Positions 4,641-54,282 of a stretch of DNA of 64,000 nt are shown here, one piece after another (position 1 is the stretch's first letter; every line of letters begins with the position of its first letter). The translations under genes and the position numbers were made by a program. The DNA comes from Nitrososphaeraceae archaeon (GTDB lineage: Archaea; Thermoproteota; Nitrososphaeria; Nitrososphaerales; Nitrososphaeraceae). The DNA lies in NCBI GenBank assembly GCA_031316115.1, contig JALDRC010000001.1, positions 186,001 through 250,000 of the forward strand, read 5' to 3'. Under the pieces are notes generated by a model that searched no databases, was not told where the DNA came from, and worked only from the letters and a program-made list of their open reading frames with translations.

Positions 4641-5568
4641 CCATGCAAGTAGATAAAAATTTGATATATGGTCGTGATGAGTTTTTCAAAAGATTTTTGT
4701 TAGAGATCATCATATTTACTTAATGCAACAATTTTTGAAATATCAGATCTTGTAAATCTTTGAATTTTTCTAAATTAGGATGTCTTTAATTTAAATAAAT
4801 CAATTCAGGACCAACAATCATAGATTCTTGTATTTTTTTATATTATTACTCTATTTTTTTTCAATATTTATTCAAATTTTAAAAAAAACGTCTAATAAGA
4901 AATATTTTCATGTTCATTTTTACCATTAAGAATTTAATTTATAATAAATAGATAATTTGTTTTAATCAAAAAAAAATGCAGAGTATTCTACAACCATAAC
5001 TTTATTCACATGTTAAAAAAATATAAAAAAACCAGATTGCTACGTTTTTGACCTGGATAACCTTTAAAATAATGATTTTTTTTTATTTAATTAACAAAAT
5101 TTTTTAAATTGATAGCAAACAAAAAACAAAAAAATCGCAGGTTCTATATAAATATAACAGAAAAATGATACAAACAAACTAATTGTTATACAATCTGATT
5201 GATACAAACAAACTAATTGTTATACAATATGGGTAGATAAAGAAACCAAATGTTATACAATATGGGTAGAGACAAACAAAATCAGTTTAAATAAATATTT
5301 AGATAAAATCACTATTAATCTCCATTGTAATAATTTTATCTCAGAAAAGTCAATGTTATAAGGACAAAAGCCCCTTATCTTTTTTTGATATCTATAAAAC
5401 TCTTGGGATATTCATATAAGTAGCTAAAAACCCAGCTGAATTTTTTATTTATGCGATGAATAAAATTAAATTTGAACTAAATAGAACATCAACCTATATT
5501 ATGATGGATTCTCTTTATCTATCATTTATTGGTTTAACTTTAATTAATCCATCTAATCATTGATCTGA
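4641..5568. other. AT-rich intergenic region without a recognisable gene
   Basis: No coding region is supported on either strand. The stretch is exceptionally rich in A and T runs and contains the 34-bp direct-repeat cluster at 5167-5290, listed separately. A plain intergenic or decayed segment between two dead genes is the simplest reading. Confidence 0.5.
5167..5290. repeat. Direct repeats of about 34 bp (three and a half copies)
   Basis: The unit begins GATACAAACAAACTAATTG and continues TTATACAATATGGGTA. Copies start at 5167, 5201, 5236 and 5269 (the last partial), giving spacings of 34, 35 and 33 bases. The first two are nearly identical and the third carries several substitutions. There are no variable spacers, so this is not a CRISPR array. 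It lies in a noncoding AT-rich stretch and could be an iteron-like protein-binding array or a simple slippage product. Confidence 0.65.
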
Positions 5569-6654: not shown

Positions 6655-7044
6655 ATGAAAGATGATAAGAGGATAACTCTAATGAAAGCAGCTAGAGATG
6701 CATTGTCTAATTCATACAGTCCTTATTCAAATTTTAAAGTTGGTGCAGCTATTCTTACAAATAATGAGAATATATTTAGTGTCTGTAATATGGAATATAT
6801 ATCATATGGACTTTCAATGTGTGCTTAAAGAGTAGCGTTGTTTAAGGCTGTTTCTGAAGGTTTTAGACAAATAAAATCTATCGCAATAACACCAACTCTT
6901 GATAAACAGGTTTTTCCTTATGGAGCATGTAGCCAAGTATTAGCAGAATTTAACCAGAATATGAAAATATATATTGATAAATCCAATAAAGTATATGATC
7001 TTTCTGACTTAATTCCTAATGTGTTTAATAATAAATTATATTGA
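6655..7044 (+). pseudogene. cdd: Cytidine deaminase pseudogene (nonsense at catalytic Glu)
   Basis: The 130-codon frame from the ATG at 6655 matches tetrameric cytidine deaminase over its full length: YSPYSNFKVGAAI near the start, then SMCA-stop-RVALFKAVSEG and PYGACSQVLAEF. In the functional family these are C-A-E-R and P-C-G-A-C-R-Q-V-L. Here the catalytic glutamate codon is TAA, one zinc ligand (the Cys of PCG) is tyrosine and the Arg of CRQ is serine. The lesions combine a nonsense codon with loss of active-site residues, so the gene is dead and not a readthrough candidate. Confidence 0.85.
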
Positions 7045-7056
7045 TTTGGTACAATT

Positions 7057-17498: not shown

Positions 17499-20444
17499 TT
17501 ATTCTAGGATATTTCTATCTTTTCCTTTCCGCGTCCTTATCTTTTTATAAATCTCAATTATTATATATGAGGTGATAGAAATTATTATAATTCTAAGCCA
17601 TGAATCAATATTCATTGGAACACTTTCAAAAGTTAGATTCATTATGGGATTATATGTGTAGAAGATTTGTAACAAAACCATTATAATAATTCCTACTATA
17701 ACCCATTTATTTGAAAAAATCCCCAGTTGAAAGATCGTTTTATAAAGTGACCTACTATTAAGAAGATAAGTTATTTCAATCATTACAAGAGTGTTAACTG
17801 AAACAGTTCTTGCCAATTCAAGATTGTTTGATATACTCAATTCCCATGTAAATAAAAAATATACAGACATAGCCATAATAGTCATAGTAATCAAAATTCT
17901 TTCCATCATCTCCTTGTTAAGAAGAGAATATTTTGGAGACCTTGGAGGGCGTTTCATTATATCTTTTTCCTTGGGCTCAAATATCAACATCAATCCTAAT
18001 GCTAATGAAGTAGTCATATTTATCCACAATATTTGTATTGGAACTATAGGTAAAGCTAATCCTGTAAAAAACGCCGCTAATATGATTAGTGATTCTCCAA
18101 AATTAGTAGGAAGTGTCCAAGCAAGAAATTTTATTAAATTATCAAAAATCCCTCTTCCTTCTTCAACAGCGGTTTTAATAGAAGCAAAATTATCGTCAGT
18201 TAATACCATATCTGATGACTCCTTAGCTACATCAGTTCCCGTTACTCCCATGGCGATACCGATATCTGCTTGTTTTAACGCAGGAGCATCGTTTACCCCG
18301 TCTCCAGTCATAGCAACTACATGACCTTTTGTTTGTAATGCTTTAACCAATGATAATTTTTGATTTGGAGAGACACGGGCGAAAACATTTGTTTTTTCAG
18401 CGATGTTAACTAATTCAACCTCTGAATATTTTTCTAAATCATTACCTGTGACTGCTTTAATAGATTTATGTATTACAGGGTTATTCGAATTTAAATCCAG
18501 ATTTTTATCATCTGATATATCATCCATGAATCCTATTTTTTGATAGGTATTGTACTTGTATGTTTTTTGAGCTGAACTCACTAAGCCTAATTGCTTTGCT
18601 ATAGCTATTGCAGTATGCAAATTATCACCTGTAATCATTTTTACATCGATTCCTGCTGTATGACAGGATTTTATTGATTCAATTACTTCTTGCCTTGGTG
18701 GATCGAGCATAGCAACAAAACCTAGGAAATTCAAATCTGTTCTGATATCTGTATGGGTTATTTCAAGGCTCTCACTTTCAGTGATTTCCTTCTTTGCAAA
18801 AGCAATGATTCTTAGTCCTTTTTTTGCCATTGATTCTGATTGTTTTTTTATAGTTTCAGAAATCTCTGGAGTTAATTCCTCTGTTGTAGTAAAAATATTT
18901 CCATTTAAAACATCTACAAAATCATAAGAAAAAGTTTTGCAAAGATTGAGGATCTTTCCAAGCGATCCTTTGACAAAAATTATCTTTTTTGCATGAGATT
19001 TATCTTTACTATCCTCGTAAGATTCAATATGATTATAGTTCAGAGTTGCCATATATCGTTGGTGTGATTCAAAAGGAATTGCATCTATACGTGGAAATTC
19101 TTGATATAATATGTGTTCATTGTATCCTGCTTTCCTTGCCAAAACTACTAATGAACCTTCAGTAGGATCTCCTTTTATTTTCCATTGTCCTGTTTCTTCT
19201 TTTGTCAATTGAGAATCGTTACACACACATCCTGCAATTAGACATTCGGAAAGAGTATTTTTAACCGGTATGTCTTTTTGCTTTTTTATATAATATGGGA
19301 GTAGATTTGGAAAATAATTTTCATCAAATGGATATGCCTTATCGGTACAAATGATCTCCCCTTCTGGTAAATATCCTAGTCCAGTAACTTTATATTTATT
19401 CCCACCTGCTACCATCTCTGTCACAGTCATCTGGTTTTCAGTAAGGGTACCTGTTTTATCAGAACATATCACAGTAGTACTTCCAAGAGTTTCTACCGCA
19501 GGCAATTTACGAATTATAGTATTATTTTTTGCCATTCGATTGACTCCTATTGAAAGTGTAATTGTTAATGCTGCTGGTAAGCCTTCTGGAATGGCTGCGA
19601 CGGCCAGAGCAACCGAGAACATAAACATATCAATAAAAGGATGATTCTGAACAGTGCCGGCAATAAAGGTTAACCCAACAAATGCTGCAATTACAACTAA
19701 TAATAACTTGCTCAAACTAGATAACTTACGTGCTAACGGAGTAGTAACATCTTCTGCTGAAGTTAAGCTCTGCGAAATTTTTCCTGTTTCAGTTTTGTCT
19801 CCTATGTTTACAACTATTCCCATACCATAACCATATGTTACCAATGTACCAGCAAATGCCATGTTATGTCTATCTGCAACAATCGTATCTAGTTTGAGAA
19901 CTTTTGAAGTTTTTTCAATTGGAATGGATTCTCCAGTTAATGATGATTCATCAATCTTTAATTCTCTTGTTTTTATTAGTCTAATATCGGCTGGAACTTT
20001 ATCACCAGATTTTAAAATGATAATATCTCCCACAACTAGATCTTGTGAATGGATAGTTAGTTTATGTCCATTTGCTCTAATAACTGTGGCTTCTGTAATA
20101 ATTATTTTAGATAAAGCATCTATAGCTTTACTTGCTTTGAACTCTTGAATAAATCCTACAATTGTATTTACTATTACAACACCAAATATTACAGATGAAT
20201 CTACCCATTCTTGGAGTAATGCTGTAATGAATCCAGCAATAACTAAAATATATACAAATGGTTGTCTAAATTGAGATAAAAAAAGCTCTAATTTGGTTAC
20301 TTCTTTTTTCTTAGAAATTATATTAGGACCATCTGTTTGTTGCCTTCGGAGTATTTCTTCGCGAGATAAACCATTGTCAATATTAGTTTTAAAAAGATGA
20401 CATAGTTCTGTACTAGAAAGTGTATGCCAATCCTTAAACTCCAA
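17499..20444 (-). CDS. Cation-transporting P-type ATPase (P2 type, Ca2+-like)
   Basis: A 981-residue ion pump with a full P-type ATPase layout. It has an N-terminal cation-ATPase domain ([10 protein letters not shown]), a TGES actuator motif near residue 173, the membrane motif PEGLPA near 285, and the phosphorylation motif DKTGTLT near 330. An N-domain and the hinge motif [11 protein letters not shown] near 715 follow, then the C-terminal four-helix extension. PEGLPA and the C-terminal helices place it in P2A/P2B, related to Ca2+ pumps, rather than heavy-metal P1B pumps (no CPC, no N-terminal metal site). The substrate is therefore probably Ca2+ or another light cation. Transcribed alone; a Usp gene is divergent upstream. 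Confidence 0.93.
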
Positions 20445-51678: not shown

Positions 51679-52890
51679 GTGGTAAATCGCTTTATAAGAG
51701 ACGAGAAAGATAATTCTATTAAACATCAATATCAGAATTATTCCGATAATAAAACAGACCACTCTAGTGAAAATATTATAATTACTCCATGGGAAGTACA
51801 TGGAGATTTTGAAGATGAAAATTATTCAAAATTGATAGAAAAATTTGGTACTCAACATATATCGCTAGATTTAATCAATAAAATTAAAAAAATTACAGGT
51901 GAGGTTCATCCTCTGATTAAATTTCGGTATTTTTTTTCACATCGCGATCTTGATTGGATATTAAATAAATACGAGAATGGTGAACAATTTTATCTGTATA
52001 CTGGGAGGGGCCCATCGGGATTAGTCCATATGGGCCATCTTTTGCCTTGGATATTTACAAAATATTTGCAAGAAAAATTTAATTCAAAATTAATTTTTCA
52101 AATTACTGATGATGAAAAATTTCTGTATAACATGAATTTCGACAGAAACAGAATCAAAAATTATGTTCTAGAAAATATTTTGGATGTTATAGCAATAGGT
52201 TTCAATCCGGAGTTAACTAAAATAATTGTTGATACGGAGCATATCAAATCTTTATATCCCATTGCAATTGAAATTGCAAAAAAAATTACTTTCTCTACGG
52301 CAAAATCTGTATTCGGATTTAATAACATGACAAATATAGGAATGATTGGATTTCCTCCAATTCAGGCAGCACCTTGTTTTCTTCCAACGGTATTGGAAAA
52401 TAAACCAACCCCAGTTCTAATTCCTGCAGCAATAGACCAAGATCCTTACTGGAGAATTACAAGAGACGTAGCAGAAAAACTCGGATATTACAAACCTGCC
52501 CAAATACATAGTAAATTTTTGCCTGGATTATCAAACTTGACAAAAATGTCATCATCAAAGCCTGAAACTGCTATATTTACGACTGATGAGCCAGAGGTGG
52601 TAAGAAAAAAAGTAATGTCTTCTTTTACTGGTGGTCAACCAACAGTAGAACTTCAAAAAAAATTAGGGGCAAATCCTGATATTTGTCCAGTATTTTGGTA
52701 TTTAAAGTATTTTTTTGATACCGAAAAAAAATCCATAGAAAGATTCTATAGATGCAGGAGTGGTAATTTATTATGTGGAGAATGTAAAAATGAATTAGCC
52801 AATGAATCAGTGATATTTATAAAAGATTTTAAAAAAAGAAGGGAAAAAGCCCGTGATAAGATCGCTGAATTCATGTTTGAAAGTAGGTAA
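51679..52890 (+). CDS. trpS: Tryptophanyl-tRNA synthetase
   Basis: A 403-residue class I synthetase of the archaeal/eukaryotic type. It has a GTG start at 51679, and a first 60 residues rich in polar amino acids. The catalytic domain contains TGRGPSGLVHMGHLLPW (HIGH signature as HMGH), FQITDDEKFLYN, PAAIDQDPYWRITRDVAEKLG and KMSSSKPETA (KMSKS signature) with FTGGQPT nearby. The length is normal for the family. Downstream, after a 5-bp gap, is an unknown 102-residue gene, probably co-transcribed. Confidence 0.95.
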   Translation: MVNRFIRDEKDNSIKHQYQNYSDNKTDHSSENIIITPWEVHGDFEDENYSKLIEKFGTQHISLDLINKIKKITGEVHPLIKFRYFFSHRDLDWILNKYENGEQFYLYTGRGPSGLVHMGHLLPWIFTKYLQEKFNSKLIFQITDDEKFLYNMNFDRNRIKNYVLENILDVIAIGFNPELTKIIVDTEHIKSLYPIAIEIAKKITFSTAKSVFGFNNMTNIGMIGFPPIQAAPCFLPTVLENKPTPVLIPAAIDQDPYWRITRDVAEKLGYYKPAQIHSKFLPGLSNLTKMSSSKPETAIFTTDEPEVVRKKVMSSFTGGQPTVELQKKLGANPDICPVFWYLKYFFDTEKKSIERFYRCRSGNLLCGECKNELANESVIFIKDFKKRREKARDKIAEFMFESR

Positions 52891-52895
52891 CTAAT

Positions 52896-53204
52896 GTGAG
52901 AGTAAGCGAAACAGTTTCCTGTTTAGATAAATATGAGAAGGAAAAATTATCTAGGCTATTTTCAGTACAAAAGAATGGTAAAATAGCTGTTATAGACATT
53001 ATCAATATTATAGAAAACGAATTAATAATATTGTTGTATGATAAATCATGCCACAGTGTAACAATGGAAGATAAATATTCGGCGTTAAAACTCTTTAATT
53101 TATTTAAGGGAATTAAAGATGGAACTAGGGAATTTGTTGAACTTCAGGATTCGCCTTTAAATAAAGTGCTTTTAATAACAAATTCCATAAGAACAGTTAA
53201 ATAA
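52896..53204 (+). CDS. Small protein of unknown function in the trpS operon
   Basis: A 102-residue protein starting with GTG at 52896, five bases after the trpS stop. It reads MRVSETVSCLDKYEKEKLSRL, a strand-helix region KIAVIDIINIIENELIILLYD, then SVTMEDKYSALKLFNLFKG. An alpha-helical protein without a recognised domain. Its last 60 bases lie opposite the 3' end of the gene carrying the 23-bp repeats. The tight coupling to trpS suggests a translation-related or neutral role. Fully hypothetical. Confidence 0.6.
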   Translation: MRVSETVSCLDKYEKEKLSRLFSVQKNGKIAVIDIINIIENELIILLYDKSCHSVTMEDKYSALKLFNLFKGIKDGTREFVELQDSPLNKVLLITNSIRTVK

Positions 53205-53755
53205 TTAACGATACTGCTATGGATTAAAAAATAATTGGTAATTTTTTTGGTTTTTCTTTGAGATCTTGTTTGGTTTTTCTTTGAGATCTTGTTTGGTTTT
53301 TCTTTGAGATCTTGTTTGGTTTTTCTTTGAGATCTTGTTTGGTTTTTCTTTGAGATCTTGTTTGGTTTTTCTTTGAGATCTCTATTCATAACTACCTGAT
53401 GATATCTTTTAACAAGATAATATCGCTCTAGTGATTGTAATAACAATTGTTGAACCTTTCTAAAATATAGACTAGTTGAATATGGCATCATTTCTATATT
53501 TTTTTCAATTACAAATAATACATATGGTATGACCCTTGCTGAAATATAGATGTGAAATTTCATAGACAATATCTTATCCTGTACAAAGTCAAGATCTTTA
53601 GTCGAAATTTCAGGAATAACTTTTTGAGATATATTTTTGATCCTCTTATACCATAAATCTAAAGTTGCAGGATCTAATCCAAACTTTAAATCTTCAATAG
53701 TTTGTTCAAATTTTATAGAGGCAAAATTGAGAGAACTGTATAGTGACAATATCAT
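53144..53755 (-). CDS. Hypothetical protein with coding 23-bp tandem repeats
   Basis: A 203-residue protein. Residues 1-125 look like an ordinary helical protein (LYSSLNFASIKFEQTIEDLKF; ARVIPYVLFVIEKNIEMMP; FRKVQQLLLQSLERYYLVKRYH) with no recognised family. From about residue 126 it enters the tandem repeat, where the frame cycles through KEKPNKIS, KKNQTRSQ and RKTKQDL. After the repeats the present frame runs on to a stop at 53144, overlapping the antisense trpS-operon gene. The other two frames stop within 14 codons. The real C-terminus thus depends on the repeat copy number. Confidence 0.6.
   Translation of the reverse strand: MILSLYSSLNFASIKFEQTIEDLKFGLDPATLDLWYKRIKNISQKVIPEISTKDLDFVQDKILSMKFHIYISARVIPYVLFVIEKNIEMMPYSTSLYFRKVQQLLLQSLERYYLVKRYHQVVMNRDLKEKPNKISKKNQTRSQRKTKQDLKEKPNKISKKNQTRSQRKTKKITNYFLIHSSIVNYLTVLMEFVIKSTLFKGES
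53249..53382. repeat. Perfect 23-bp tandem repeat, nearly six copies
   Basis: The unit GGTTTTTCTTTGAGATCTTG plus TTT starts at 53249, 53272, 53295, 53318, 53341 and 53364 without mismatch; the last copy diverges after GAGATCT. 23 is not a multiple of three, so successive copies are read in different frames on the minus strand, and no frame of the unit contains a stop. See finding. Confidence 0.95.
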
Positions 53756-53805
53756 GAATAAAAATTACATTGATTTAATTTAATTGATAAAAAAAAATTG
53801 TCCTC

Positions 53806-54282
53806 TTAATCGTATAAAATATTTCCATATTCATCAATTTCACCCTTACGAATCCTTGTTGAAGATAGTGGTTTTCCGTCGCTTGAGTTCACCATTCTTA
53901 TTACTGAAATTTTTAAAGGCTTGAAATTTTTTATGCACCTTATTTTATTTACTTCAGAGATTTTTTCAAATGTGTCTTCACTTACCACGATAGCTTCGAT
54001 ATCATTGGAAGTTAAAATTGGTCCAAATTCATCATCTAACCTAACTATCTCATAATTTCTATTTGCAAAATTTATTGAAATCGCTTTATTTAGGTTTTCC
54101 AAACGTCTACTATAATCATGTTTAATGTCGATATTTACCTTATACTTTTTTACAAACTGGTCACTTGTCAGACCTATGATTACTTTTTGTCCAATTCTAA
54201 AGGATTCTGATAGTAAATTTAAATGCCCTTGATGAATACAATCAAAAGTTCCACCAGTAGCAACTAAACTAAACCTGTGCAA
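53806..54282 (-). CDS. coaD: Phosphopantetheine adenylyltransferase, archaeal type
   Basis: A 158-residue nucleotidyltransferase from a TTG at 54282. The longer frame to 54375 overlaps the upstream ferredoxin gene and lacks family similarity. It has LVATGGTFDCIHQGHLNLL, with the HxGH-type nucleotide motif, IGLTSDQFVKKYKVN, and the closing KPLSSTRIRKGEID, whose STR motif binds ATP. It converts 4'-phosphopantetheine and ATP to dephospho-CoA. Archaeal CoaD differs from the bacterial type and this matches the archaeal form. The ferredoxin gene lies just upstream. Confidence 0.9.
   Translation of the reverse strand: MHRFSLVATGGTFDCIHQGHLNLLSESFRIGQKVIIGLTSDQFVKKYKVNIDIKHDYSRRLENLNKAISINFANRNYEIVRLDDEFGPILTSNDIEAIVVSEDTFEKISEVNKIRCIKNFKPLKISVIRMVNSSDGKPLSSTRIRKGEIDEYGNILYD

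Follow-up and report, generated by a model that had tools for sequence, protein, structure and literature searches.

We found an array of perfect 23-bp repeats near the 3′ end of a small, conserved archaeal gene, and we consider it likely, from comparison with related genomes, that this array is a recent lineage-specific minisatellite expansion within a weakly constrained Lys-rich tail and not a regulated switch. The array lies in the window, a 64,000-nt stretch of the genome referred to here as G000; this genome encodes archaeal AmoA, and thus the organism is an ammonia-oxidizing archaeon.

Results

A perfect 23-bp array in the tail of a conserved gene

Tandem Repeats Finder identified the array at positions 53246-53381 (136 bp) with a period of 23, 5.9 copies, 100% matches and 0 indels, which was the top score in the window. 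This result confirms the assertion of a preliminary description of this DNA that nearly six perfect copies lie inside a gene; the array had been placed at 53249-53382, with its start set 3 bp too late. The array has the form of a coding minisatellite, in that tandem units in the range of ~10-100 bp recur at high identity within the open reading frame (ORF) of a real gene, with the array itself located past the conserved domain. The principal features of the locus are as follows:

53144-53755, minus strand: host ORF, which encodes 203 aa with the array at its present length and is conserved over residues 1 to ~111 (ORF list, family searches, alignment)
53246-53381, minus strand: 23-bp minisatellite, 5.9 perfect copies, with gene-strand unit CAAGATCTCAAAGAAAAACCAAA (Tandem Repeats Finder, genome search, frame calculation)
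52896-53204, plus strand: converging conserved 102-aa ORF next to trpS, with no Pfam or NCBIfam match (ORF list)

The host ORF and the converging 102-aa ORF overlap by 61 bp. The 102-aa protein belongs to a small archaeal family found throughout both the genus and the taxonomic family (syntenic loci L039-L043 and L049).

In 464 kb of the G000 genome, this is the only perfect array with a period of at least 10 and at least three copies. The 23-bp unit is confined to one genomic site (whole-genome search allowing up to 3 mismatches) and has no exact match in the genome contigs database, ruling out a dispersed or mobile repeat; a scan of the same database for related loci also recovered nothing. 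We rejected a CRISPR array, since there are no spacers, as well as plasmid iterons, since the neighbors are trpS, a PPAT-like gene and a ferredoxin gene, with no replication gene. Other repeats were noted in passing. A second, imperfect array in the window (5166-5280; 34 bp × 3.4 copies, 81% matches) lies where there is no ORF of at least 60 aa, and locus L051 (same numbering as G000:C1) carries a 72-bp unit in three copies at 97% (6835-7049) and a cluster of 27-bp repeats (18295-18694), each with a period divisible by three.

The conserved part of the host protein precedes the array. An initial search matched the first ~110 residues in 31 of 41 genomes, and a profile search of 70 genomes from the same taxonomic family recovered 41 intact copies of the gene. 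All invariant columns of a 16-sequence alignment fall within these residues; in G000 the conserved domain is open and retains all 13 of them, which makes it probable that the cells still produce the protein. The conserved part matched no Pfam or NCBIfam model above cut-off, and an apparent resemblance to a riboflavin transporter was discarded, as the full ORF scored 17.8 bits where the cut-off is 27.9 and the hit disappeared when the tail was removed. The predicted structural model is mostly helical (mean pLDDT 83.6) and had no PDB match with E ≤ 0.001, while a profile search of solved structures returned only a designed bundle at E 0.2. Some relatives carry a second, diverged paralog of the host protein (24-30% identical) (G008:C36:14434-14712; G016:C1:1110784-1111098; G023:C6 and C21; G057; G072).

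Copy number sets the reading frame beyond the array

The preliminary description stated that no frame of the unit has a stop, and this is borne out in all three frames on the gene strand. The gene-strand unit contains only two Ts, each followed by C, and thus no stop codon can arise within it; on the plus strand, there is one stop per 23-codon cycle of the array. This openness is unremarkable and within what chance produces: of random 23-mers drawn from long ORFs of the G000 genome, 14.5% are open in all three frames, as are 21.5% of the sequences obtained by shuffling the unit itself. Moreover, a frame-shifting array of at least three copies can survive in a long ORF only if it is open in all frames.

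We calculated the frame beyond the array for ~1 to 13 copies and obtained three classes of C-terminus, which are distinguished by these features:

53144-53245, minus strand: stretch that the present frame reads after leaving the array; 61 bp of this tail lie antisense to the 102-aa gene (ORF list, frame calculation)
53224-53226, minus strand: TAA stop for the class of copy numbers to which a lone partial copy belongs (frame calculation)
53217-53219, minus strand: TAG of the third copy-number class (frame calculation)
53226-53231, minus strand: gene-strand T6 tract shortly after the array, where the host transcript possibly ends (sequence)

In the 203-aa product of the present class, the last ~34 residues lie past the array, and ~20 of these are encoded antisense to the 102-aa neighbor. 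One unit more or fewer brings translation to the TAA or the TAG, at most 14 codons past the array. Only the present class reads through the T6 tract into the neighbor, and the stops of the other two lie at this tract or shortly after it; the long frame would be marked by peptides from ITNYFLIHSSIVNYLTVLMEFVIK, and the other classes by products ending in KKLPIIF or NQKNYQLFFNP. Thus, the calculation agrees with the earlier statements that the present tail runs antisense into the neighboring gene and that the other frames stop within 14 codons. The arithmetic behind the proposal that gain or loss of a unit swaps the C-terminus is likewise correct: over this range, a change in copy number would alter both frame and product, as at a contingency locus.

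The tail is a genus-level addition to a gene that is being lost

The preliminary description had proposed asking whether the ortholog lacks repeats and where it stops. Outside the genus, orthologs from the same family end at ~111-114 aa, before the array, and more distant orthologs in the order end at up to ~129 aa. Stop-to-stop frames in the other 40 intact copies of the family span 111-165 codons, compared to 206 in G000. Thus, the array lies wholly past the usual end of the protein. Among the relatives, a Lys-rich tail of this kind occurs only in the congeners G003 and G004 (~30 residues, 35-41% K+R, compared to 41% in the G000 repeat tail), and Tandem Repeats Finder detected no array in either tail. 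The tail has also diverged more than the core, as the DNA identity between G003 and G004 is 85% in the core and 65% in the tail.

In the other three of the five congeners (G001, G002 and G005), a broken copy of the host gene still occupies its place, flanked by the PPAT-like gene and the 102-aa gene. No congener carries the repeat at this spot. In G005, the gene is split over frames and contains stops; in G002, there are nine stops in the matched stretch; in G001, the first part alone is recognizable. The congeners are draft genomes, but these lesions are too many for simple sequencing errors. The broken copies, each in the interval from the PPAT-like gene to the 102-aa gene, are at L041, L042 (also L037) and L049. 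Loss of the host protein, which is small and widely conserved, appears to be repeated: the family had no match in the five genomes of genus g10, and only weak matches were seen in genus g6.

When the G000 tail was collapsed to a single unit plus its 3′ flank, it matched the single-copy tail of G004 at 22 of 25 columns (p ~0.005 against Markov-resampled sequences, for a match that is short and A-rich); no significant match to the G003 tail was found. The G004 frame that matches the present G000 3′ flank (KKTKKNT) is the coding frame. The repeat-free congener tails, the lower conservation of the tail, the broken copies and the G004 match together indicate that the expansion most likely took place in the G000 lineage, within a weakly constrained Lys-rich tail that already existed. 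The earlier suggestion that the repeat is recent fits as well, as the copies are perfect and the congeners are free of repeats at this spot.

T tracts on the opposite strand

The Lys codons AAA and AAG are TTT and CTT on the opposite strand. There, T-rich sequence follows the converging gene, beginning with this feature:

53242-53248, plus strand: T7 tract, the first of seven T5+ tracts after the converging-gene stop, possibly a U-tract terminator (sequence, tract count)

The 180 nt that follow the 102-aa stop codon contain seven T5+ tracts, compared to a mean of 1.36 at convergent gene ends in the G000 genome. All five congeners, including those with a broken host gene, have three to seven such tracts there, whereas 13 relatives outside the genus, whose base composition differs from that of the genus, have none to two. 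No intrinsic hairpin terminator (a GC-rich stem with a T run) was found in 52800-53900. RNAs with at least two U4 tracts are bound by aCPSF1, an archaeal termination factor, and additional tracts improve binding (PMC8716108); the stretch here exceeds this minimum of two. By analogy, the T-rich stretch may serve as the terminator of the converging transcript.

Discussion

Alternative explanations for the array

We considered that the array might be a length and frame switch, in which slippage varies the copy number and yields three C-termini, one of them long and antisense into the neighbor, so that the protein differs between cells. Every unit shifts the frame and the array is open in all three classes, and variants of repeat-bearing ORFs in three frames are known from SSR1 and SSR2 of Mycobacterium avium subsp. 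paratuberculosis (PMC10581078), which, apart from general papers on phase variation, was the only example that a literature search for a close precedent returned. Yet the array was seen in a single genome at a single copy number, no congener keeps it, three of the five have a broken gene, the repeat sits outside the conserved domain in a tail that is absent outside the genus, and all-frame openness arises by chance in 14-21% of units. Thus, the length-switching device offered in the preliminary description finds no support, and we regard it as very doubtful. A quite unlikely alternative is that the array is real but the assembly has the wrong number of units, with the long antisense frame being an artifact. 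A perfect array of 136 bp is near the limit of short-read assembly, and it is the present class alone, out of three, that passes the T6 tract into the neighbor. However, chance alone would give such a class one time in three, the array lies within a 578-kb contig of an assembly with 20 contigs and 98.8% completeness, and the frame corresponding to the present 3′ flank is coding in G004.

Alternatively, it might be the T-rich strand that matters, if the array multiplied U-tracts that terminate the trpS/102-aa transcript and the Lys-rich tail were a by-product. The abundance of tracts here and in all five congeners relative to those outside the genus, the excess over other convergent ends, and the preference of aCPSF1 for more U4 tracts (PMC8716108) are all in its favor. 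Nonetheless, a single unit would still leave two T5+ tracts, and thus the expansion is not needed for termination. Furthermore, the tail in the broken G005 copy is no better conserved than the core (78% vs. 82%), and no extra conservation of the T-rich tail was thus seen where the gene is broken. We therefore consider this explanation unlikely. Finally, the array might act as a tunable element on both strands, in which copy number re-frames or lengthens the basic tail and also adds terminating U-tracts, adjusting both genes; we view this combination as extremely improbable.

Expansion in a weakly constrained tail

The explanation we favor is the recent expansion in the Lys-rich tail. Replication slippage or unequal recombination would have multiplied a 23-bp A-rich stretch in the C-terminal tail, probably disordered, of this small protein, which is conserved in archaea; the tail itself is a dispensable, genus-level add-on under weak constraint. 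A change in copy number would alter the last residues of the protein, most likely as noise, and the expansion is probably neutral. The frame-shifting repeat could have grown without visible cost because the tail is weakly constrained and the gene is being lost in the genus. That this is the most striking perfect array in the 464 kb leaves some room for a special cause.

The locus resembles several known systems in part. Like prokaryotic coding minisatellites or VNTRs, it consists of perfect head-to-tail copies in an ORF, likely grown by slippage, in a low-complexity tail, but its period of 23 is not a multiple of three and each copy shifts the frame. As at the frame-switching contingency loci of phase variation, gaining or losing copies would move the downstream sequence into another frame and give the protein a different C-terminus; in contrast to those loci, this one has a long unit, located C-terminal to the conserved domain, in a gene that is decaying in the genus. 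The several T5+ tracts soon after the stop of a converging gene recall archaeal U-tract terminators, which depend on aCPSF1 (PMC8716108), except that the tracts in G000 lie in a repeat and in the coding tail of another gene.

The locus shows how a frame-shifting minisatellite can persist: behind a conserved domain, in a T-poor, Lys-rich tail, with all frames open, in a gene that is being lost. It also provides a caution, in that all-frame openness of one short unit is weak evidence of design, as about one in six random units passes. The significance beyond this locus is small. If its copy number is variable, the array could serve for simple strain typing within this group of ammonia oxidizers.
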